DNA of 59,735 bases from an uncultured Acidobacteriia bacterium (GTDB lineage: Bacteria > Acidobacteriota > Terriglobia > Bryobacterales > Bryobacteraceae). The first letter of the stretch is position 1; each line of letters opens with the position of its first letter. Positions 10,729 through 49,697 of this stretch are shown here, in pieces. The notes under the pieces are model-generated. The model had not been told where the DNA came from. It did no database searches and was given only the letters and a program-made list of their open reading frames with translations. The position numbers and the translations under genes are program-made. The DNA is taken from NCBI GenBank assembly GCA_903882645.1, contig CAIRXZ010000247.1:1-59735 (forward strand), in the 5' to 3' direction.

Positions 10729-11232
10729 TCATCCCACCGTGGCCAGCCGCTCAAACCGGTCCCGGTCGTTGCCGATCGCCATCGCCAGGGCCAGCAGCTT
10801 CTCCAGGGCCTCGGTGGCGGTCCCGAAACAGACCGTGATCTGCCCCGGGACAACCGCCACGCCCTCCGGCAGGCCCTCGAACCTCTGGCCCAGAACCGCC
10901 ATCGGAGCTTCAACCAAAACCCGCGGGCGCCGCAGCAGGTCCTCGCGCAGTTTCTCCAACTGCTCCCCAAGCCGGCGTTGCCGGCGCCGTTCATAATATG
11001 CTTTTTCACCAGCCGCCAAGCGCCGCAGATGGTCGAGGATTGCTTCGCGCCGCGCAAGACCGTTCCTGCCGATTTGGCGGGTAACGCACGGGGCCAGAAT
11101 CTGCTGGGCCCGGCGCCTGCCGACCCCGAGCGCCTGTTCGAGCATGGGACGATCTACCCAGGAATCGGGAAGTTCGCCCAGAGCCTTGGCGATTTCTTCT
11201 AAACGCCCGCACCAAGTAGGCTTATCCGGCAT
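10729..11232 (-). CDS. Hypothetical protein with possible HTH segment
   Basis: A 167-residue protein of unknown function. Residues about 25-50 ('SWVDRPMLEQALGVGRRRAQ') read like a helix-turn-helix, followed by a strongly charged helical stretch ('EKAYYERRRQRRLGEQLEKL'). The C-terminal part, 'GVAVVPGQITVCFGTATEAL', looks like a small alpha/beta fold. No catalytic motif is visible. It is transcribed divergently from the tyrosine recombinase, and the spacer holds two inverted repeats, so it may regulate or assist the recombinase. That role is a guess from position alone. Confidence 0.6.
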   Translation of the reverse strand: MPDKPTWCGRLEEIAKALGELPDSWVDRPMLEQALGVGRRRAQQILAPCVTRQIGRNGLARREAILDHLRRLAAGEKAYYERRRQRRLGEQLEKLREDLLRRPRVLVEAPMAVLGQRFEGLPEGVAVVPGQITVCFGTATEALEKLLALAMAIGNDRDRFERLATVG

Positions 11233-11272: not shown

Positions 11273-11359
11273 ATGCGCGTATGCGAATTATGACGGAATT
11301 GATAGCTGTTGAGCCATATTGGAACCAGCCAAACCCGCCGCCCGCATTCGGTTATGAAC

Positions 11360-11383
11360 GCACGATAATTAGACATATCGTGC
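11360..11383. promoter_or_regulatory. 24-bp inverted repeat, candidate recombinase core site or operator
   Basis: Perfect 8-bp arms GCACGATA / TATCGTGC flank the 8-bp spacer ATTAGACA, ending 14 bases before the recombinase ATG at 11398. The arm-spacer-arm layout resembles tyrosine-recombinase core sites, and the overall length is the same as the other inverted repeat at 11249-11272. An operator for autoregulation is equally possible. Confidence 0.5.
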
Positions 11384-11397
11384 TATCGTGGATTCGC

Positions 11398-12282
11398 ATG
11401 GATCAGCTCATTGTAGGAGCTTCTGCCAGGCCCGCGCCGGCCCATGGCAGTCCGCAAGAGGCCGAAGTGATCCATGTCTGGCTCTCCACCAAGATCAGCA
11501 GCGCCACCCGCCGCGCCTACGCCGCTGAAATCGCGCGCTTTTTGACCTGTGTCCGGAGGCCTATCGCTTCGGTCACGCTCGCGGACATGCAGCTTTACGC
11601 TGAAACGCTGGCGCGGAGCGGCCTCAAGACTGCCAGCCAGAACCGGGCGCTCACCAGTGTCAAGTCGCTGCTTTCATTCGCTCAGGAGACCGGCTATCTG
11701 GCTTATAATGTTGGGGTTGCAGTCAAACTCCGCCCCTATCCCGATGCCTTGGCGCAACGTTTTCTCGAAGAGAGCGAAGTGGCCAAACTCATCGAGGCCG
11801 CACCCGTTGGCCGGGACCGGGTGCTCTTGAAGCTTCTGTATGTTTCCGGCGTCCGCGTCGGCGAACTGTGCGGCTTGAAATGGTGCGATGCCCTGCCCCG
11901 CCAGGCGGGTGGCCAGATCACGGTATTCGGAAAGGGTGGTAAGACCAGAACGATTCTGTTGAAGCCAAACGTCTGGCAGCAACTCCTGTCGCTCCAGGGA
12001 GCGGCCCGCGCGGTCAATCCCCTGTTCCGCAGCCGGAAAGGAGGCGGTCAGATCGATTCCTCTCAGGTCCGCCGCATCGTGTACGCCGCCGCCCGCAAAG
12101 CCGGCCTGGAGAAGAAAGTGTCGCCCCACTGGCTGCGCCATGCCCACGCCAGCCACGCTCTGGAGCGAGGCGCCCCCCTCCACCTGGTCCAGGCTACCCT
12201 CGGGCACGCCTCCATCGCTACGACTGGGCGCTACCTCCATGCCCGGCCCACCGACAGCTCCAGCTTCTATTTGCCCGATTGA
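11398..12282 (+). CDS. Tyrosine recombinase, XerC/XerD-like integrase
   Basis: Starting at ATG 11398 gives 294 residues, the usual Xer length. An in-frame ATG at 11281 adds 39 residues with no family resemblance and crosses the inverted repeat. The N-terminal SAM-like core-binding domain ('TRRAYAAEIARFLTCV') is followed by the catalytic domain with Arg in 'SGVRVGELCGL', Lys in 'VFGKGGKTRTI', 'HWLRHAHASH' (His-x-x-Arg), 'LGHASIATTGRYLH' (His and nucleophile Tyr). All catalytic residues are present, so the enzyme should be active. It probably integrates, excises or resolves dimers of the neighbouring replicon. It ends 33 bases before a TACCGTA repeat pair and converges with rep. Confidence 0.88.
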   Translation: MDQLIVGASARPAPAHGSPQEAEVIHVWLSTKISSATRRAYAAEIARFLTCVRRPIASVTLADMQLYAETLARSGLKTASQNRALTSVKSLLSFAQETGYLAYNVGVAVKLRPYPDALAQRFLEESEVAKLIEAAPVGRDRVLLKLLYVSGVRVGELCGLKWCDALPRQAGGQITVFGKGGKTRTILLKPNVWQQLLSLQGAARAVNPLFRSRKGGGQIDSSQVRRIVYAAARKAGLEKKVSPHWLRHAHASHALERGAPLHLVQATLGHASIATTGRYLHARPTDSSSFYLPD

Positions 12283-12314: not shown

Positions 12315-12339
12315 TACCGTAGCGCGATCTTGTACGGTA
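12315..12339. repeat. TACCGTA repeat pair (array A)
   Basis: TACCGTA at 12315 and its reverse form TACGGTA at 12333 start exactly 18 bp apart, in the 64-bp spacer between the convergent recombinase and rep genes. The surrounding words 'gatagct..cttataccgtagc' and 'cttgtacgg' recur around 20438-20470 in the same orientation, so the two ends of the replicon block share this sequence. Confidence 0.85.
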
Positions 12340-12346
12340 GCACTTT

Positions 12347-13870
12347 TCAGAACAGGCTTCCCGCTTTTTGCTGCGTGAATTCCTCGAAACTCGGCAGGTC
12401 GAGCTCGCCCGCCACCTCCTCTCGCAGTTTTCGCAGCGCGAATCCACGAAGCGTTGGTTCCGGCCAGCGGTATTGCGGGGCTCCCGCCTGAATGCGAGTC
12501 ATGTGATCGCGAATGCGCCGTTCGATGGTCGGCTCCGCCATCTTGTTCTTCATGTGCTGGTCGGTCTCTTCGATCAAGAAGGCCTCGTAGCGCTCCCGCT
12601 GTTCGTACATCTCGAGTTCGCGCTGGGCCTCTCGCGCGCGGCTTTCCAAATCGCGCTGTTGCGCTTGCTCCCGGAGCGTGCGCTTGTGCGTGGTCTCGAA
12701 GCTGGCCGGCACCGGATAATTACAGGCCAGGAGGTACACGTAAAACCCGGGTGGATTCAGGATCGGTTCGCGGGTCCGTTCCTTCCGCTTCACTTCCGTA
12801 TCGCCCCATTCGATCTGATCCATCGCCGGCTGTTCTTCCGGAAGGTCGATCAGCAGTTGGCGGGCGCGATCTTCTCGAACGCCCCGCTCCGCAAGCGCTC
12901 TCAAAAGCTCGTTCTGACGCGCGCTGAGCAAGCCGGCTCTGTCGGGATTCTCCGCGTTGCGAATATCGGCCGCGCTGACGAAAGCGCTGCCCGCCCACAG
13001 GCAGAGTTTGTAATCCAGGTCATCGGTGGTCTTCGCCAGATCCCAGCTCGAAAGAAAACCTTTCTCCCGGAGTTCCTCAAGACTTGGCCCGAGTTGCTGT
13101 CTGATCCGGGACAGCGCCTTGAAGCATTGCAGGCCTAACAGCGAGCACAAATCGGAATATTTTCTTTCGGCGCACTGGTCCCGGCGGCTGGCATAAAACC
13201 AGATCTGGAGCAACGGTACCAGGGCTTTGGCAATGTGCGATTGAAGAGTTCTGTAGACGTCGTAGTCGATCGGCAGCGTGTGGCGATTGTTGACGTTCTC
13301 GAGTTGCCATTCGCTCAGCCAAACGTAGTTCTCCTCCGCGACCGTGCCGTCTTCGAGAACCTCGCCAATGGCCACCGATCGCTGAAAAACGTGGAAAAGA
13401 TCGCGGGCGTATTTCTTTCTGCCGGCGAAGTAAACCACCCCCTCCGATTCCACGCCCGTAAGCGTCATACGCCTCAGCCATTCCCAAATCTCGCGGTAGT
13501 TCCTGCCGCCATCGGTCATTCCAAGTATTTCAATCATCGCCGCCGAGGAGAACTGCACCGGATTGGCAACCAACCCTTGCTGCTTGCGAATCTGCTCTAT
13601 GATCTTCTGGAAAGCAAAGTACTTGTCTTGATCGGCGGTGGTCGGCAGCCCGAGCTCCGCGGCAGGGTAAATCGTCGCTTTCGCCTGCACTCGCTGGCCG
13701 TCGTCCGTGCGAACTTGAAGGGCGACGGTTTTCGAGGCGGTCCGGAGTCTCTTGCTGGACGGAGTGAAAAAACCGAATGTGTTTACGTTCTTCTCCACAC
13801 GCACAATCGTTCGAGCCGTGTTTGGGGCAATGGGAAGCAAAAGTTGCTGACGGGTACGTGGCCGGCGCAT
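12347..13870 (-). CDS. Plasmid-type replication initiator (RPA family)
   Basis: About 507 residues from ATG 13870 ('MRRPRTRQQ'). The reading frame stays open to 13954, but that extension (Cys- and Asn-rich) looks non-coding. The central region has 'GRNYREIWEWLRRM', 'EENYVWLSEWQLENVN', 'LPIDYDVYRTLQSHIAKALV' and 'IWFYASRRDQCAERKYSDLC', matching the replication initiator protein A (RPA) family of plasmid Rep proteins, which bind origin repeats with winged-helix domains. The last 150 residues are a charged, probably coiled-coil region ('REAQRELEMYEQRERYEAFL') and an unrecognised tail. Its upstream region carries an AT-rich tract and 22-bp spaced repeats, the usual arrangement for an iteron origin. 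Confidence 0.82.
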   Translation of the reverse strand: MRRPRTRQQLLLPIAPNTARTIVRVEKNVNTFGFFTPSSKRLRTASKTVALQVRTDDGQRVQAKATIYPAAELGLPTTADQDKYFAFQKIIEQIRKQQGLVANPVQFSSAAMIEILGMTDGGRNYREIWEWLRRMTLTGVESEGVVYFAGRKKYARDLFHVFQRSVAIGEVLEDGTVAEENYVWLSEWQLENVNNRHTLPIDYDVYRTLQSHIAKALVPLLQIWFYASRRDQCAERKYSDLCSLLGLQCFKALSRIRQQLGPSLEELREKGFLSSWDLAKTTDDLDYKLCLWAGSAFVSAADIRNAENPDRAGLLSARQNELLRALAERGVREDRARQLLIDLPEEQPAMDQIEWGDTEVKRKERTREPILNPPGFYVYLLACNYPVPASFETTHKRTLREQAQQRDLESRAREAQRELEMYEQRERYEAFLIEETDQHMKNKMAEPTIERRIRDHMTRIQAGAPQYRWPEPTLRGFALRKLREEVAGELDLPSFEEFTQQKAGSLF

Positions 13871-14014
13871 GGAGTTCATTAGCATCGTGTCACAAGGCAT
13901 GCAGCAAAAACAAGAACTGTTCTGAATGTTGTTTGTTAATACTATGAACAACACATATAAAAACCTGTGACATTCCGCAAGCCGTTGAAATAACAGACGT
14001 TAATGATGTTTTCG

Positions 14015-14117
14015 TTACGTTGAAGTACGGGGATTCTTACGTTGGGGTACGGTATGCCTTACGTTCTAGTACGGAAAGTTTCCTTTGCGGTACGGAATAC
14101 CTTACTTTGGAGTGCGG
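14015..14117. repeat. Iteron array B1, 22-bp pitch
   Basis: Five copies of a 16-mer close to TTACGTTgaaGTACGG start at 14015, 14037, 14059, 14080 and 14102 (steps of 22, 22, 21 and 22 bp). The first two and third differ only in the three middle bases (gaa, ggg, cta); the fourth and fifth are more diverged. A sixth exact copy of the first lies at 14180-14195. They sit 145 bp upstream of the proposed rep start and read as Rep-binding iterons. Confidence 0.85.
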
Positions 14118-14199
14118 ATGAAGCGGCAGGTTGGACCCCTGGCGGTGCGTTCCATTGGCTCGCTGCCCCGTACTTGGTTTTACGTTGAAGTACGGACGC

Positions 14200-14242
14200 A
14201 GCGGTATATCAATGTTATACCGTATTCGACACTTCTACCGTA
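14200..14242. repeat. TACCGTA repeats, 18-bp pitch (array B2)
   Basis: TACCGTA begins at 14218 and 14236, and a partial unit AGCGGTA at 14200, all exactly 18 bp apart. This array directly follows the 22-bp iterons and precedes the small HTH gene by about 100 bp. Confidence 0.8.
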
Positions 14243-14340
14243 TCTATACGGGCTTATGCGCTAGATTCCGGCTGGCATTCCCCAGTTTCCCCACTTTTGT
14301 ATTGACGGGCAAGTCGAGAGGTCATATCATCGTTGTTCGG

Positions 14341-14553
14341 ATGCCGACTAGCACCTGGACTGAATTGCCCTACTTACGAACCGCTGAGGTGGCGGACATT
14401 CTGAGGGTCACCAAGAGGACCCTCAAGAATTGGCTTCGCCGCGGTTCGATTCCTGAGCCCCAGCGGAATCCGTCCAACCGATATCGCTTGTGGACCCTCG
14501 AGGATGTTGAGGCCGTGCGCAGGTTCTTGACCGAAAGGAACGGCGCCAAATGA
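14341..14553 (+). CDS. Small MerR/excisionase-like HTH protein
   Basis: A 70-residue protein from ATG 14341; the open frame to 14131 covers the repeats and is not used. The sequence 'YLRTAEVADILRVTKRTLKN' then 'WLRRGSIPEPQRNPSNRYRL' and 'LEDVEAVRRFL' is a textbook MerR-type/excisionase winged helix. Its stop overlaps the parA ATG by four bases (ATGA), so the two are co-translated. In many plasmids the DNA-binding domain is fused to ParA; here it appears as a separate partner, and it may repress the operon or bind the nearby repeats. An excisionase role for the recombinase is another option. Confidence 0.75.
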   Translation: MPTSTWTELPYLRTAEVADILRVTKRTLKNWLRRGSIPEPQRNPSNRYRLWTLEDVEAVRRFLTERNGAK

Positions 14554-15362
14554 TTCGACTGGTCATCTCGAATCAGCGCGGGGGGGTGGCCAAGACCACC
14601 ACGGTGGCCACCTTTGCGCGATATTTGGCGGACCGCGGGAAGCGGGTTCTGGTCATCGACACGGACCCGCAAGGGTCCATAGGGACGGTGCTGGGCCTGA
14701 AGCCCGCGAAATACCTGCACGATTTTGTGGTCTATAATCACTTGTTCAAAGATTGCATCGTCGAGGCGTGCCCGGGCGTCGACGTTCTTTGCGGGAACCG
14801 CGACACCGTGAAAACGGAAGGCCATCTGATGGGCCAAGTGGCGCGCGAATTCGTATTCAACAACCTGTTCACGCAGGTCGAGACTGGCTACGACGCCGTG
14901 CTGATCGACGTAGCCCCTTCCATCAACCTGTTGCAGACCTGCGCCATGGTGTACGGAAGATCGCTGCTGATCCCCGTCAGTATGGATCCGCTGAGTTTGC
15001 AGGGAGCCGCCGCCAGCATCGAGACTGCCCGGATGCTGAACTCCTTGATCCACATCGAAATTCAGCCGGTCGCGCTGCTTCCGGTAATGGTCGATCGCCG
15101 CCTGCAAATCACCGAAGTCGTCAGCACATCGCTGAAGGACTTGTCGGTCCGCACCAGGATTCCGCTGCTGCACGGAATCCGTACCGATACGACAGTCACG
15201 AAATGCAACAGGGCCAAGAGATTTCTAGCCGACTTCGAACCGCGTTCCAAAGCCCTTGAGGACTATCAGACGGCGTTCGAGGAATTATTGAATCTGCTCC
15301 ATGGAGAACCACGCAAGGACCAGAACGAAATCCAGGAAACCGCCGGCCCGGCCAGAGCTTGA
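14550..15362 (+). CDS. parA: ParA-family partition ATPase
   Basis: A 270-residue ParA/MinD-type ATPase. The deviant Walker A is 'NQRGGVAKTTT' at residues 8-18, Walker A' is 'VIDTDPQGS', and Walker B is 'AVLIDVAPS'. The signature lysine of the deviant Walker motif (KGGxxKTT) is Arg10 here, an unusual but conservative change. The protein would segregate the replicon by oscillating on the nucleoid with a centromere-binding partner. It overlaps the HTH gene upstream (4 bp) and the next gene downstream (62 bp), a compact operon. No canonical ParB (ParB/Srx fold) is present nearby. Confidence 0.87.
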   Translation: MIRLVISNQRGGVAKTTTVATFARYLADRGKRVLVIDTDPQGSIGTVLGLKPAKYLHDFVVYNHLFKDCIVEACPGVDVLCGNRDTVKTEGHLMGQVAREFVFNNLFTQVETGYDAVLIDVAPSINLLQTCAMVYGRSLLIPVSMDPLSLQGAAASIETARMLNSLIHIEIQPVALLPVMVDRRLQITEVVSTSLKDLSVRTRIPLLHGIRTDTTVTKCNRAKRFLADFEPRSKALEDYQTAFEELLNLLHGEPRKDQNEIQETAGPARA

Positions 15363-16068
15363 GCCAATCAGCTACGAGGAAATCATGGCCAACGCCGGCA
15401 TGTCCGGTTTTGTGTCGTTTCTCGACGCGCCGGAGCCTGGGACGACTGCCCCAACAGCGGCCGGGACGCCAGGATCGCCAGCAAGAGGCCCTGAATTTGG
15501 TACCGTATCGGAAGTGGCTACCGTAAAGGAAACGACTACCGTACAAGAACGTAAAACAGCTACCGTACAACAAAGTAACGCCGTACAACAAAGTATCGCG
15601 GTACAAGAAGCTTATACCGTCCAGGTTCATAACGCTCACGAGAGCAGGCGGTCCCGGGTGAAGCTGGCCCGTGTCGTTGAAGACGGGCACTCGCTTGCCG
15701 AACAGGAGATCTACAGGACGCTGTGGAGAGTGGGCGTGGCGGAAACCAACGATCCCGAGGCGAACCGCATTGTCCGAATCGGCTATGACAGGCTGGCTGC
15801 GCTGGTCAGGTTAAGTTGGGTGACGGTAAAGGCCAACTTGCGCAGTCTCGAGAAGAAGCTCGCCATTGATGTGGTAGCCGCCGAGGACTCCGCTAACAGG
15901 GAAGGGAAGCAATACCGCGTTTATTCCAACCCGGCAATATGGGCGCGGCGTCAATCGGCAGGGCTGCTGTGGGTCAGAAGGACGCGCGGAGTCGAATTGC
16001 TGCCGGATGCGTCGGGAGACCCCCGGGGAGAGCGACCTGCGGCTTTCCACTCCTTACACCGTACCTAA
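15301..16068 (+). CDS. Winged-helix-like protein with an internal repeat linker, candidate ParB analogue
   Basis: A 255-residue protein overlapping parA by 62 bp; ATG 15385 is a possible later start. Residues 68-111 are six-residue repeats of the form (T/A)-V-(Q/K/S)-x-x-x ('ATVQQSNAVQQSIAVQEAY'). These are the translation of seven TACCGTA-type DNA repeats at an 18/24-bp pitch. The C-terminal half, 'LAEQEIYRTLWRVG' and 'IGYDRLAALVRLSWVTVKAN' with 'LRSLEKKLAI', reads as a winged helix-turn-helix. Position after parA suggests a centromere-binding protein that could bind the repeats in its own gene. No ParB fold is recognisable, so this is inference. The last codons overlap another repeat (16057). 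Confidence 0.7.
   Translation: MENHARTRTKSRKPPARPELEPISYEEIMANAGMSGFVSFLDAPEPGTTAPTAAGTPGSPARGPEFGTVSEVATVKETTTVQERKTATVQQSNAVQQSIAVQEAYTVQVHNAHESRRSRVKLARVVEDGHSLAEQEIYRTLWRVGVAETNDPEANRIVRIGYDRLAALVRLSWVTVKANLRSLEKKLAIDVVAAEDSANREGKQYRVYSNPAIWARRQSAGLLWVRRTRGVELLPDASGDPRGERPAAFHSLHRT
15501..15621. repeat. TACCGTA repeats inside a coding sequence (array C)
   Basis: Seven heptamer units begin at 15501, 15519, 15537, 15561, 15579, 15597 and 15615 (steps 18, 18, 24, 18, 18, 18). The first four are perfect TACCGTA; the last three are CGCCGTA, CGCGGTA and TACCGTC. Every step is a multiple of three, so each unit is read in the same codon phase (..T ACC GTA). The extended word CCGTACAACAAAGTAA at 15563-15578 also occurs in non-coding DNA at 20354-20369. 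Confidence 0.92.
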
Positions 16069-16099
16069 AAACAATACGGTATTGTTAACTTGTACGGTA
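16057..16099. repeat. TACCGTA repeats (array D)
   Basis: Units CACCGTA at 16057, TACGGTA at 16075 and TACGGTA at 16093 lie exactly 18 bp apart. The first overlaps the last codons and stop of the winged-helix gene. The rest fills the 51-bp spacer to the convergent SBBP gene and contains the palindrome GTTAAC at 16084-16089. Confidence 0.85.
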
Positions 16100-16119
16100 T
16101 ACTCTTAGCTGCATACGTT

Positions 16120-19100
16120 TTAGTGTATCGTCGCGGCTTTGTAGCTGTAATCCGCGTACTGCCAGTCGGCGCCGATTCTCGACCACAAGCGCACATACAG
16201 GGTGCTGCCATCGGTGGGCAGGGTTGTAAAGGTCTTTGAGGTATTCGACCCCTGGGTGTTGCTATAGATCTCTTTTCCGCCCGGCGCTAGCTTGCTGACG
16301 TAAAGCCAATATTCGGAGACCCCCACGCCGGCGGACCACTGGAAGGTGACGGTGGAACCGGGCAGGGTGGCGCCGTTAATCGGGCTGATCATTGAGGCGG
16401 GCGACGGAGTTGGCGCTTGCAAGAGATCCGGCGACACAGCGCCCGAAAGCGCATAGCGAAACGCGCCAATCACGAAGTCCGGGTAAGAGCCGGCGTTTGA
16501 GAGCGCTATAGCGACCTTTGTGATTGGCGCGCCAGTGGCCGCGAAGATCCGGGAATTGGGATACGACATGCCGTCCATCCTGATGGTGAGGGATCCCGAA
16601 GATGCGGTGTAGAAGGTCGCGATGATCGTGCCGATATCGTCAGGCTCCGCTTCGAAGCCGAATGTCCACACCGGACGGGAAAAAGTGATGGTGAGATTGG
16701 GGAGACCGAACCAATTGGTCGTCGCGCTCCATGTGGCCGCTGGGTTGAAAAGGGGGTTGTATGGATCGAGTATCGGCAAGACGCCGTTGGGGTCCGTGCG
16801 CTCCGAGTTAGGGGCTACGCTCCAGTCCCAGTTGTCGGGGCCAACCGCGAACCTTACCAGCGTGGAGCTGAAAGCCAGGCTCAGAACTCCATCGCTGAGC
16901 TGGTTGGAGGTGGGAGGGGTAACATAATCCCAGACGGGGAAGTTGGAGAAGTCGAAACCGTAGAACGGAGTGGCGGCCAAATAGGAGGCCAGCGAGGCCG
17001 AATCTGCGGGCGCGATCCGGGTAAGAGCCGCCGCGCACTTATAGCTGTAATCCAGGAATTTCCAGGCGGCGCCGATTTTCGACCACAGGCGTATGTAAAT
17101 CGTGCTGCCGTCGGTGGGCAAGCCTGTAAACGTCTTTGATGTGTTGGTTCCCTGGCTGCCGCTGTAGATTTCTTGTCCGCCCGGCGCCGCGTTGCTGACG
17201 TAGAGCCAATACTCGGAGACCCCAACCCCTGAGGACCATTGGAAGGTCGCGGTGGAACCAGGCAGGGTGGAGCCGTTGGCCGGGGTGATCATGGCGGCAA
17301 CCGGCAAACCCACGGCCGTGAAGGTGTAATCGGCGTACCGCCAATTGCCGCCTATCAGCGACGACAGGCGCACGTAAATTGTGCTGCCGTCGAGGGGCAG
17401 GTTCGTCAGGGTCAATACCGTTTGGGAACCGGCGTTGATGCTGTCAAGATCGCCCCCGCCGGGCGCTACCTTGCTGACGTAGAGCCAATATTGGGAGACC
17501 CCAACCCCGGCGGACCATTGGAAGGCAACCGTGGAACCGGGCAGGGTGGAGCCGTTAGCCGGGCTGATCATCGTCCCGGCCGTCAACAGTGCGGCGCAAT
17601 AGACGTAATCGACATACAGCCAGCCGAAGCCAGCCGTCGAACCAATACGGACATAGATGAGCCGGCCATCCAGGGGCAGGTTCGTCACGAGTTGCGACGT
17701 ACCGGCTCCCAGCGCGCCGGTAAAGATATCCGTCCCCCCCGCTCTGATCCCGCTGACGGAAAGCGAGCAGCCGCTGAAATTGCCCATGCCGGTCCATTGA
17801 AAAACTACGCTGGCGCCAGGCAGCCAGGACCCATTTTGCGGGCTGACGATCATTGCCGGAACCGTCCAGTTCCCTTTAAGCTCCCAGCCCGTCGAAGTGC
17901 TCAGGTTGGCGGATTGCACGTAAACGTTCGTTGTCCCTGCCATTGGCGGCAGAAACGAGATCGCCAGGTTCAAAGTCAAGACAGTCCCGGACGCCGAAAC
18001 GCTCGAGGCGGCGCCGTTCAGGACGCACTGGCTGTTCCCCTGCGTGCCGCTGCCCGGGGTGATCGTTCCAGCCGGCGGGCCCCCGGCGTCAGTCAATAGC
18101 GACAAAGCGTTCGCGACCCGGTCATAGACCACCGCGCACCCATTCACGGCGCTTGGCGTCGAATTGAGCAATGCCGACACGGTCGTCAGGTCCGTTACTC
18201 CGCTGGCATCGGAAAACTGAAAGCCGAACGTCTGCGAGGCGCCGCCGCCCGAATTCGGCGTCACCCCCGTATTGACCGGCGGCGAACCGGAATTCAGTTT
18301 CGTCACGAACGCGCCATAATTGTCGGCGTCGATGGATTGATAAGGGTTCCGGAGCGGAAAGTTGCTGGAGAGGGTCCAGCCGGCTACATAGACGTTTCCC
18401 GACGCCAGCGCCAGGGCGGTGGCGGTGTCGGCCCCGTTTCCTCCGAGATAGGTCAAGTAGGCCAGCGTCCCCGTAGCGCTCACTCTAGCCAGAAAGGCGT
18501 CGCAAGCTCCGGCGTTGGAGCCTTGAAGCGCATTGGCGACCGGCAGGTCCGTCGAATACGTGTAGCCCGCGACGTACGCGGCCCCGCTCGTGTCCACCGC
18601 GATCGCGTTGGCGACCTCCACTCCGGAGCCTCCCAGGTATGTGCTGTAGGCCAATGTCCCGGAAGCGTTCACTTTCGTCACAAAAGCGTCCGTTGCTCCA
18701 TTTAGCGACGGCTGCAGGGGGTTCACCAGGGGAAAGTTCGTCGAACTGGTGACTCCCGCGACATAAGCGTTACCCTGCCAATCCAGAGTGATCGCCTGCG
18801 CGGCCTCCGGGTAACCGAGCGAGCCGCCGCTCCCGCCCAAATAAGAGCCGAACAGAACCGTATTCCCATCGGCGGAGAGCCGGGCCACAAATGCATCCTG
18901 GCCACCCCCGAGAGCGCTTTGAAATGCATTCGCCACCGGGAAATCGGGGGACCAGGTCGATCCAGCCACCCAGGCCGCCCCGGTCGCGTCCACAGCTATG
19001 GCGGCGCCGTGATCGGTACTCGCCCCGCCCAGATAACTGCTATACGCCAGGCGGCTCCCATCGGCGGACAACTTGGCGACGAAGGCGTCCTGGCCTCCGT

Positions 19101-20286
19101 GGTTCCATCTCTGCCAGCCGGTCGCCGGGAAGTTCAGGGACGTCGTGTCTCCCACGACATAAGCGTTTCCGGCCGCATCCACCGCGATTCCATTGCCGGA
19201 ATCCGATGCGTTCCCGCCCAGATACGTGCTGTACGCCAAGCTGTTGCCGGCGGCGGCCAACTTCAGGACAAACGCGTTCCGAACGCCCGCGAGCTTCGAC
19301 TGCAGCGGATAGACGACCGGGAAGTTTTGCGATGTTGTAGCTCCCGTGACATAGACCGCCCCCGCGGCGTCCACCGCGATTCCATACGCCCGATCATCGC
19401 CGGCGCCGCCGAGATAGGTGCAATAGATCAGCCCGGTTCCGGCGGGGTTCAATTTCGCTACAAAAACATCGTTCCCGCCGGCGTTGAAATTCTGCGCCGG
19501 ATTGGCGGTAGGGAAGTCGGTGGATTCGGTGAAGCCCGCAATATATGCCGCTCCCGTCGAATCCACCGCCAATGCGTTTGCGGCATCGGCGCCCGAGCCG
19601 CCCAGGAGCGTACTGTAGGAGATCGCCGGGTCGATAATCAAAGGCCGTGACGCATCGTACTCGCCGATTGCGAAACTCACGGCTTCGCCCGCCAGGATGA
19701 ACCGCCCCTCCACGGCGACGCGCCGGCCCTCGCGCTCCTGATAGACGCTGGGCGCCTGTTCGCGAAACTCCTCACCACCGACGGGGATCGCCAGCGAGCC
19801 ATCTTCTCCGATGCGCGGCTTGCCGCCGCCGAGATACCGTACCCGGATGGCCGAAGGGTCCGCCTTTGGTGCCACGACGAACTCGGATTTCAGGTTTCGG
19901 CCGGCGGCCCCGTAAATCATGTCGATTCCCGGATAAAGGCTTCGATATACGACTCCCCCATACAAGGGTTGCGCCAGCAGCCATCGGTCCTTCGGCCCGG
20001 TCAGGAAATTGGCCACTCCGGCCACGCGGCTCATGGCTTCCGGCCGGGGGGCGTGGGCGGCCCCCTCGAAATGCATGCGGAGAGTGTTCCCCGCCACGCG
20101 AAACAGCGCTTCGCCGGGGGAGAAATAGGCCGTCAACCCGGGCGCCCTTGCCATAAAGCGGACCGGCGGCGGCGCCTGCCCATGGTTCGCCAGAAAGAGC
20201 AGCGGCACGGGTTCCCTTGGCGCCGCGCCCACGGCCAAAATGGCGCAGTTCGCCATCAAGAGAATCCGGTATCCGCGTAACGCCAT
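16120..20286 (-). CDS. Giant secreted SBBP-repeat (beta-propeller) protein
   Basis: A 1,388-residue protein with a hydrophobic N-terminus ('ILLMANCAILAVGAA') that looks like a signal peptide. Residues about 25-215 match the N-terminal domain usually found before SBBP repeats ('FLANHGQAPPPVRFMARAPG', 'SLYPGIDMIYG'). About eight SBBP propeller units follow to about residue 640 ('YSTLLGGSGADAANALAVD' type). Then come four Ig/fibronectin-like units sharing 'ISPANGSTLPGSTVAFQWS' and 'SxYWLYVSKxAPGG'; a 200-residue unrecognised insert ('FYGFDFSNFPVWDYV') precedes the last one. It is a likely surface or extracellular adhesin or binding protein. It lies between repeat arrays D and E, so it appears to be cargo of the plasmid-like block. 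Confidence 0.85.
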   Translation of the reverse strand: MALRGYRILLMANCAILAVGAAPREPVPLLFLANHGQAPPPVRFMARAPGLTAYFSPGEALFRVAGNTLRMHFEGAAHAPRPEAMSRVAGVANFLTGPKDRWLLAQPLYGGVVYRSLYPGIDMIYGAAGRNLKSEFVVAPKADPSAIRVRYLGGGKPRIGEDGSLAIPVGGEEFREQAPSVYQEREGRRVAVEGRFILAGEAVSFAIGEYDASRPLIIDPAISYSTLLGGSGADAANALAVDSTGAAYIAGFTESTDFPTANPAQNFNAGGNDVFVAKLNPAGTGLIYCTYLGGAGDDRAYGIAVDAAGAVYVTGATTSQNFPVVYPLQSKLAGVRNAFVLKLAAAGNSLAYSTYLGGNASDSGNGIAVDAAGNAYVVGDTTSLNFPATGWQRWNHGGQDAFVAKLSADGSRLAYSSYLGGASTDHGAAIAVDATGAAWVAGSTWSPDFPVANAFQSALGGGQDAFVARLSADGNTVLFGSYLGGSGGSLGYPEAAQAITLDWQGNAYVAGVTSSTNFPLVNPLQPSLNGATDAFVTKVNASGTLAYSTYLGGSGVEVANAIAVDTSGAAYVAGYTYSTDLPVANALQGSNAGACDAFLARVSATGTLAYLTYLGGNGADTATALALASGNVYVAGWTLSSNFPLRNPYQSIDADNYGAFVTKLNSGSPPVNTGVTPNSGGGASQTFGFQFSDASGVTDLTTVSALLNSTPSAVNGCAVVYDRVANALSLLTDAGGPPAGTITPGSGTQGNSQCVLNGAASSVSASGTVLTLNLAISFLPPMAGTTNVYVQSANLSTSTGWELKGNWTVPAMIVSPQNGSWLPGASVVFQWTGMGNFSGCSLSVSGIRAGGTDIFTGALGAGTSQLVTNLPLDGRLIYVRIGSTAGFGWLYVDYVYCAALLTAGTMISPANGSTLPGSTVAFQWSAGVGVSQYWLYVSKVAPGGGDLDSINAGSQTVLTLTNLPLDGSTIYVRLSSLIGGNWRYADYTFTAVGLPVAAMITPANGSTLPGSTATFQWSSGVGVSEYWLYVSNAAPGGQEIYSGSQGTNTSKTFTGLPTDGSTIYIRLWSKIGAAWKFLDYSYKCAAALTRIAPADSASLASYLAATPFYGFDFSNFPVWDYVTPPTSNQLSDGVLSLAFSSTLVRFAVGPDNWDWSVAPNSERTDPNGVLPILDPYNPLFNPAATWSATTNWFGLPNLTITFSRPVWTFGFEAEPDDIGTIIATFYTASSGSLTIRMDGMSYPNSRIFAATGAPITKVAIALSNAGSYPDFVIGAFRYALSGAVSPDLLQAPTPSPASMISPINGATLPGSTVTFQWSAGVGVSEYWLYVSKLAPGGKEIYSNTQGSNTSKTFTTLPTDGSTLYVRLWSRIGADWQYADYSYKAATIH

Positions 20287-20351
20287 ACGCCATTACGTCG
20301 GCGGAACGGGAGCTTTACTTTAGTCGGGAGCCAAAAACGGGGACGCGGCCT

Positions 20352-20472
20352 TACCGTACAACAAAGTAAGGGCCGGGAAGCGGTGGGTCGCTCTACCGTA
20401 CCTTGAAGTAATACGGCAAAAGATAATGATACCGTATTGATAGCTTATACCGTAGCATAAACTTGTACGGCA
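20352..20472. repeat. TACCGTA repeats (array E)
   Basis: Units begin at 20352 (TACCGTA), 20394 (TACCGTA), 20412 (TACGGCA), 20430 (TACCGTA), 20448 (TACCGTA) and 20466 (TACGGCA). The last five are at an exact 18-bp pitch; the first gap is 42 bp (18+24). The array fills the gene-free stretch 20287-20632 upstream of the SBBP gene and may include its promoter. The words 'gatagcttataccgtagc' and 'cttgtacgg' match array A at 12301-12337. Confidence 0.88.
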
Positions 20473-49439: not shown

Positions 49440-49600
49440 TTGGTGTCCCGCGAATATGTGACTTATCCTGGCCGCCCCCTGCCCGCAGGGGTGCGGGACA
49501 TAAAAGTTGGGATTCGAGAATGCTCCGCGTTCAAGCTCGTAAGAGCGAAAGATAATAGCCCACGGCGCAAGCCGTGGGGAAGCTGCAAGATTCGCGCAGC
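49440..49600. repeat. Spacer with nested hairpins
   Basis: The spacer between the sugar transferase and galE contains arms TGTCCCGC (49444-49451) / GCGGGACA (49493-49500) enclosing CCCCTG (49476-49481) / CAGGGG (49486-49491). Further on, CCCACGGC (49559-49566) / GCCGTGGG (49571-49578) has a four-base loop. These are likely dispersed hairpin elements or terminators; no gene is seen. Confidence 0.6.
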
Positions 49601-49697
49601 CCCGGCAGGGGCGAAAGATCGCGGCGCTGCCATCTTCCGCCCCCCGCCCGCTGCCCGAAATGCCGCGATATCTCGCAGTGCGTTATCTTGAAACATT

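Follow-up and report, generated by a model that had tools for sequence, protein, structure and literature searches.

Descriptions of partition and origin sites usually treat them as distinct from the genes that encode their reader proteins. The centromere parS-359 of Bacillus subtilis is a single 16-bp site. In this ParABS system, the centromere lies within parB, the gene of its own binder (PMC4442127). On pSM19035, the ribbon-helix-helix (RHH) protein omega of the delta/omega system reads 7-bp heptads (WATCACW), whose arrays make up the centromere and also overlap promoter regions (PMC9499535). The Rep protein of pSK41, a RepA_N initiator, has its boxes in the central part of its own gene, where the origin encodes a linker of the protein (PMC5703833), and oriV of repABC replicons is located inside repC, the gene following repA and repB (PMC3155836). 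Among centromere-binding proteins of other folds, TubR is a winged helix-turn-helix (HTH) protein, and AspA of pNOB8 builds a superhelical complex on its centromere (PMC9178275). Here we describe a block of phased palindromic boxes in 59,735 bases of DNA from an uncultured soil bacterium of the Acidobacteriia (hereafter the window). The window is a complete contig (C247), and the draft genome to which it belongs comprises 5.27 Mb in 366 contigs. The densest group of boxes lies within the gene of a 255-residue protein, hereafter X. The reading that we favor, with moderate confidence and from sequence comparison, is that X would be a ParB-like centromere-binding protein and that the box lattices would be its centromere and operators, one of them inside the gene of X itself.

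The nearest working analogy is omega of pSM19035, and the nearest anatomical analogy is RepA_N. As in pSM19035, short boxes occur here in either orientation, several arrays are present per replicon, and the partner is of the ParA type. However, the heptads of pSM19035 are contiguous and non-palindromic, whereas the boxes here are palindromes on an 18- or 24-bp pitch, one of the main arrays lies within coding sequence, and X bears no relation to omega. X shares with pSK41 Rep the central, linker-encoding position of the boxes in its own gene, but it has no RepA_N domain and is encoded after ParA, and its replicon has another Rep with iterons. The repABC systems resemble the block in a ParA family with a MerR-like N-terminal part (TIGR03453) and in a third gene that carries its own cis site, whereas the block has no RepB or RepC homologue and its HTH protein is a separate gene. 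ParABS relies on one site and the ParB CTPase, in contrast to the multi-copy lattices here and an X protein with no ParB domain. TubR and AspA showed no sequence relation to X in the searches made, and their gene order and the in-gene arrays differ. No closer precedent for a ParA-linked centromere array inside a gene turned up in our literature search.

Five phased lattices in one block

Boxes of the sequence TACSGTA (S, C or G) stand on an 18-bp pitch and are grouped in five clusters, A to E, between positions 12315 and 20472 of the window:

12315–12339: array A, two TACSGTA boxes 18 bp apart, 3' of a recombinase gene; not kept in the sister genome G748
14200–14242: array B, boxes at 14218 and 14236 and a weak unit at 14200, upstream of the operon promoter
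15301–16068, + strand: protein X, 255 residues, proposed centromere-binding protein; N-terminal segment, linker and conserved domain
15501–15621: array C, seven boxes (pitch 18/18/24/18/18/18) within the linker-coding part of X; the densest lattice
16057–16099: array D, three boxes at the end of the X gene, the site of the second in-gene array in relatives
20352–20472: array E, six boxes (pitch 42/18/18/18/18), 66–186 bp upstream of the start of the SBBP gene

A preliminary description of this DNA had reported five clusters of phased heptamers, with an 18-bp pitch interrupted by one 24-bp and one 42-bp step. All the positions that it listed were found in the sequence, and the two off-pitch steps are those from 15537 to 15561 and from 20352 to 20394, respectively. 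Only the unit at 14200 (AGCGGTA) is weak, with two mismatches. The window contains 16 exact TACSGTA heptamers and 6 pairs at 18 bp, whereas 100 dinucleotide shuffles of the window, a comparison suggested in the same description, gave on average 1.5 heptamers and never a pair. When the whole genome was scanned with TACSGTA-N11-TACSGTA, the block accounted for every one of the 6 exact pairs and of the 10 pairs with one mismatch or fewer; a reversed-pattern control gave 0 exact pairs and 3 with one mismatch or fewer. A genome-wide repeat is thus ruled out, as all 18-bp-spaced pairs are confined to this block, in agreement with the earlier statement that no comparable array occurs elsewhere. Lone exact heptamers are located at 14048, where one overlaps a 22-bp iteron described below, and at 19835. 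The 18-mer TACCGTACAACAAAGTAA is identical at 15561–15578, inside the X gene, and at 20352, in the intergenic array E.

TAC-S-GTA is an odd palindrome, and its two orientations are distinguishable by the central base (C or G) alone. Both orientations are seen, as had been noted, but the free orientation that was read from them is largely trivial since the box is palindromic. The boxes are not the AATT(N3-4)(C/G) direct repeats that form the consensus of BldC-type MerR-like proteins (PMC6428758). Arrays A and D are not located at promoters. The spread over several sites and genes is indeed unusual for plasmid iterons, although a precedent exists, in that several promoters of pSM19035 are overlapped by heptad arrays (PMC9499535).

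Several TACSGTA pairs were found in only 3 of 237 genomes of the family, all of this genus (G000, G748 and G750); five other genomes of the family have one pair each, which is at chance level. Locus L029 was assigned to G750, whose contig C23 gives match coordinates equal to those on L029. Over 8 kb, G748 shares 80% identity with the window. It retains arrays B to E, while array A is lost along with a replaced recombinase; array E was not found in L029. In both G748 and G750, lattices are retained upstream of the operon, within X and directly 3' of X, and their spacers diverge. The column identities of boxes versus spacers are 86% versus 43% (G748) and 81% versus 23% (L029) in array B, 67% versus 51% (G748) and 78% versus 43% (L029) in array C, and 95% versus 53% (G748) in array D. 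The preliminary description had regarded a pattern scattered all over the genome, or absent near orthologous rep and parA genes, as speaking against it; neither was found, and the pattern is present beside both genes in the two sister species. The dN/dS ratios (nonsynonymous to synonymous substitution) against G748 are 0.07 for Rep, 0.07 for ParA and 0.19 for X. Since Rep and ParA are strongly constrained, the module is not decaying.

Selection acts on the DNA of in-gene boxes in most of the X family

X is the third gene of a MerR-ParA-X operon and overlaps parA by 62 bp; ParA adjoins X in nearly all loci. A typical relative consists of an N-terminal segment, a linker, a conserved domain, a second linker and a C-terminal domain, the last of which is absent from the X proteins of the window and L029. 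In type I (ParA) partition systems, the partner of ParA activates it by an Arg-containing N-terminal segment; most X proteins begin with a short basic stretch (ARTRTKSRK in the window), a candidate for such a segment. The X of the window has no match in Pfam or NCBIfam and no ParB/Noc, HTH_ParB or RepA_N domain, and a Pfam scan of seven X members (set A1) gave chance-level matches, none of them to RepA_N or another Rep domain. Two marginal matches to phage replication-initiation proteins (E 0.05–0.06) were obtained, and a search of the X profile against the PDB gave nothing convincing. From its sequence, the conserved domain of X seems to be a winged HTH.

Relatives of X were found in 17 of 399 genomes of the class and 9 of 396 of the phylum (the window genome counted), and none among PLSDB plasmids, INPHARED phages or viral contigs. 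In-gene arrays occur in 15 homologous X genes, mostly with lineage-specific palindromes other than TACSGTA. They are mostly located in the linkers flanking the conserved domain, often as two clusters with one on each side, and at several loci further copies precede the operon. Despite the loss of the C-terminal domain, the X genes of the window and L029 retain the second cluster at their end (array D in the window). TACSGTA is the repeat word of the window, G748 and L029; other lineages have CCACAGTGG (L018, L200), CTTACAGGTAG (L016), CTAANTTAG (L205), CAGGTRYACCTG (L015) and, in both orientations, GTTTCATCCCC (L014). Pitch and position appear to be kept across lineages while the box sequence changes. 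The strongest DNA autocorrelation falls at a lag of 18 or 24 bp in 12 of 14 X genes (set A5; among these 12, L203 has a tie with 66, and the peaks of L201 and L206 come from only two or three matches) and at 36, twice 18, in one more; four ParA control genes show no comparable peak. A scan by ParA returned mostly unrelated ParA loci, near which phasing is not systematic.

Three side observations concern more remote or neighboring loci. Distant relatives in another family of the phylum (L208:8950-10230 and L209:8898-10175) have in-gene AACGTT-type arrays on 12- and 24-bp pitch. A more distant acidobacteriotal locus (L031:1957-3700) encodes MerR and ParA together with a third protein, in which a repetitive PNTPNPP linker precedes a possible HTH domain. 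The module of G087 (L017:4276-15766) adjoins genes for HamA (Hachiman defence), a helicase and a type III restriction-like protein.

Codon usage and shuffling show that selection acts on the DNA itself at the in-gene boxes in most of the family. In array C of the window, GTA accounts for 6 of 8 Val codons, versus 40 of 502 in the other genes of the window (p = 1e-5). With two homologues added, it accounts for 24 of 29 (pooled p = 8e-20, from three genes that are not independent). Synonymous codons were also shuffled with the protein kept. The 18/24-bp phasing was stronger than in these shuffles for 11 of the 16 X genes (p <= 0.027; p = 0.003 for array C of the window) and for none of 9 ParA genes. 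Five X genes fail this test, which limits the claim to most of the family. The X gene of L014 has its box in both orientations, and these encode different peptides, which is unexpected for a repeat at the protein level.

Block genes, a separate iteron system and the likeliest binder

The remaining features of the block are as follows:

10729–11232, − strand: 167-residue protein with no Pfam family, an accessory gene of the block
11281–12282, + strand: XerC/D-like tyrosine recombinase (PF00589, 1.5e-30)
12347–13954, − strand: RPA-type replication initiator, Rep (PF10134, 5.5e-8)
14015–14195, + strand: 22-bp iterons TTACGTTGAAGTACGG / TTACGTTNNNGTACGG, five and one outlier; predicted Rep sites and origin
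14302–14330, + strand: predicted sigma-70 promoter of the operon, TTGACG-17-TATCAT
14341–14553, + strand: 70-residue MerR-like HTH protein (PF00376, 3.6e-9; PF12728, 3.2e-9)
14550–15362, + strand: ParA Walker ATPase (PF13614, 3.2e-34)
16120–20286, − strand: 1388-residue protein with DUF7948 and SBBP beta-propeller repeats (PF25778, 1.2e-45; PF06739, 3.4e-40)

The preliminary description had overlooked the separate array of 22-bp iterons beside rep. Their spacing is 22, 22, 21, 22 and 78 in the window and 22, 22, 21, 22 and 80 in L029, and the set is also kept in G748. A PF10134 initiator with adjoining iterons, the mark of an RPA-type iteron replicon, is present in both the window and G749, and the 22-bp iterons are the likely origin of Rep, a system distinct from the 18-bp lattice. 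Since Rep has these iterons of its own adjoining its gene, the lattice is probably not a Rep target, and we reject its identification as the Rep iterons.

The fourth member of the genus, G749, bears on the identity of the binder. Its Rep is also of the RPA type (PF10134, 1e-14), is 40% identical to that of the window and has its own repeats of about 22 bp upstream. No MerR gene was detectable at this locus, and an AAA_22 ATPase gene (L224:8737-9552) takes the place of parA directly before the X homologue (31% identity over 155 residues). The in-gene boxes of this homologue, GGGWACSGWWCCC, have spacings that include 18, 72, 54, 36 and 54, all multiples of 18, and the shuffle test is not significant. 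The MerR-like protein is disfavored as the binder since the lattice is present in G749 with no detectable MerR gene. Across loci, the lattice co-occurs with X and with no other single gene, and it persists where Rep is unrelated or not found, where the C-terminal domain of X is lost, or where ParA is swapped for another ATPase. Judging from this co-occurrence with X, which neither Rep nor MerR nor ParA shares, X is the likeliest binder.

The MerR-like protein resembles the N-terminal part of RepA of the RepABC systems (TIGR03453). Hexamers similar to those of the predicted promoter are visible in the alignment of the three species; sites of the TTGACG-17-TATCAT type are no commoner in the window than in shuffles, and this prediction is weak by itself. 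Homologues of the 167-residue protein are located near the module in L016, L201, L202, L206, L220 and L224, usually with a Xer-like recombinase, and homologues of the recombinase itself in L016, L201, L202, L206 and L224 (70%). The SBBP gene lies between arrays D and E and is syntenic in G748 and L029; it accompanies the module in three members of the genus. Polysaccharide genes predominate in the neighborhood of the block. Elsewhere in the window, a predicted tRNA-Ala and a stretch near it (1979–2073 and 2136–2198) have many scattered matches in G748 and G749, which may point to a dispersed repeat and not to a tRNA gene. A further short dispersed repeat, at about 49530–49645, has numerous matches in G748.

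A proposed segregation role and its alternatives

We consider the block to be a candidate maintenance module of a plasmid-type replicon. Replication would start with the binding of Rep to the 22-bp iterons at 14015–14195. The palindromic TACSGTA boxes would be bound by X, probably by dimers at 18-bp intervals with 24 bp tolerated, and extended X complexes could form at all five lattices. The basic N-terminal segment of X may stimulate ParA, which would move these complexes, the lattices thereby serving as the centromere. Arrays A and E, outside the operon, and array B, upstream of it, may double as operators. Array C, the densest, lies within the X gene and encodes a flexible linker ahead of the putative DNA-binding domain of X. 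Binding site and binding protein would thus be inherited as one unit, able to diverge together. The preliminary description had predicted a lattice-binding protein of a plasmid-type replicon, either centromere-binding or Rep. The first part remains the best reading; between the two candidates, we lean to the partition protein since Rep has its own iterons and the lattice follows X where Rep differs or was not found.

Several points weigh against a segregation role. No match of X to ParB, RHH or any other known partition family was obtained, and the structure prediction of two X sequences has low confidence (mean predicted local distance difference test score, pLDDT, 43), so that the winged-HTH assignment is a reading of the sequence. 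Five of the 16 X genes (L224, L203, L206, L202 and L201) are not significant in the shuffle test. In-gene arrays are also known in RepA_N initiators, the main rival. G749 has no ParA next to X, and X need not be a ParA partner. Some relatives are chromosomal, where partition is not obviously needed; that of G612, on a 5.62-Mb contig, has mnmE, an integrase gene and a weak match to a relaxase in its vicinity. As to the block itself, rep or rep/par genes adjoin the same glycosyltransferase gene in G748, G749 and G750 as in the window genome, and this shared position does not support a recent insertion into a chromosome. The block may be a plasmid, a chromid or a fixed chromosomal locus.

The main rival would make X a replication initiator in the style of RepA_N or RepC, with the in-gene lattice as an origin that encodes the linker of its initiator. 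The pSK41 and repABC arrangements provide the precedents, and most relatives of X have no RPA-type Rep within the stretch fetched. However, an RPA Rep with its own 22-bp iterons is already present here and kept in three species, and the same combination occurs in G749. X has no Rep domain beyond the two marginal phage matches, and several separated lattices are atypical of a single origin. We therefore regard an initiator role as unlikely.

A role as operators only, in which X, alone or with the MerR-like protein, would be a global repressor coordinating rep, the par operon and the gene of the SBBP surface protein with segregation uninvolved, seems quite doubtful. Arrays B and E do lie upstream of the operon and the SBBP gene, and X is retained without ParA in G749. 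Nevertheless, the densest array lies within coding sequence in most lineages, two of the arrays are away from promoters, and ParA adjoins X in nearly all loci.

It is very improbable that the lattices are accessory sites at which the neighboring tyrosine recombinase would excise or integrate the block. The block is bounded by arrays A and E, and most relatives have an integrase gene nearby, but the densest arrays are in and around X, arrays B to E stay in G748 despite the replaced recombinase, and X arrays are kept in relatives with an unrelated Arm-type integrase. An att-like direct repeat was looked for at the block ends, and none was found. Finally, despite repetitive linkers such as the PVSD/PVSE repeats in L016 and the five genes that fail the shuffle test, protein-level tandem repeats (low-complexity linkers) with coincidental intergenic copies are scarcely credible given the identical intergenic box, the two orientations with different peptides in L014, the strong over-use of GTA codons and the 11 genes that pass.

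Beyond a ParB-like role for X in segregation, a wider proposal can be made tentatively, and we hold it to be possible rather than probable. X may found a new family of adaptors for segregation in which the gene serves at the same time as the centromere, with the binding lattice encoding the linkers around the DNA-binding domain. Site and specificity would then evolve in linkage, and either ParA or an unrelated ATPase, such as the AAA_22 protein of G749, could serve as the motor partner.

This Acidobacteriota family, in which 16 X genes were compared, appears to hold a multi-copy binding lattice in the gene of its reader, often in two places. The boxes that vary by lineage offer a natural series of matched protein-DNA pairs for work on specificity, and the arrangement suggests how plasmid incompatibility groups could diverge by single linked steps. 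Genetic tools are few in this phylum, for which the block also provides a candidate module of replicon maintenance.

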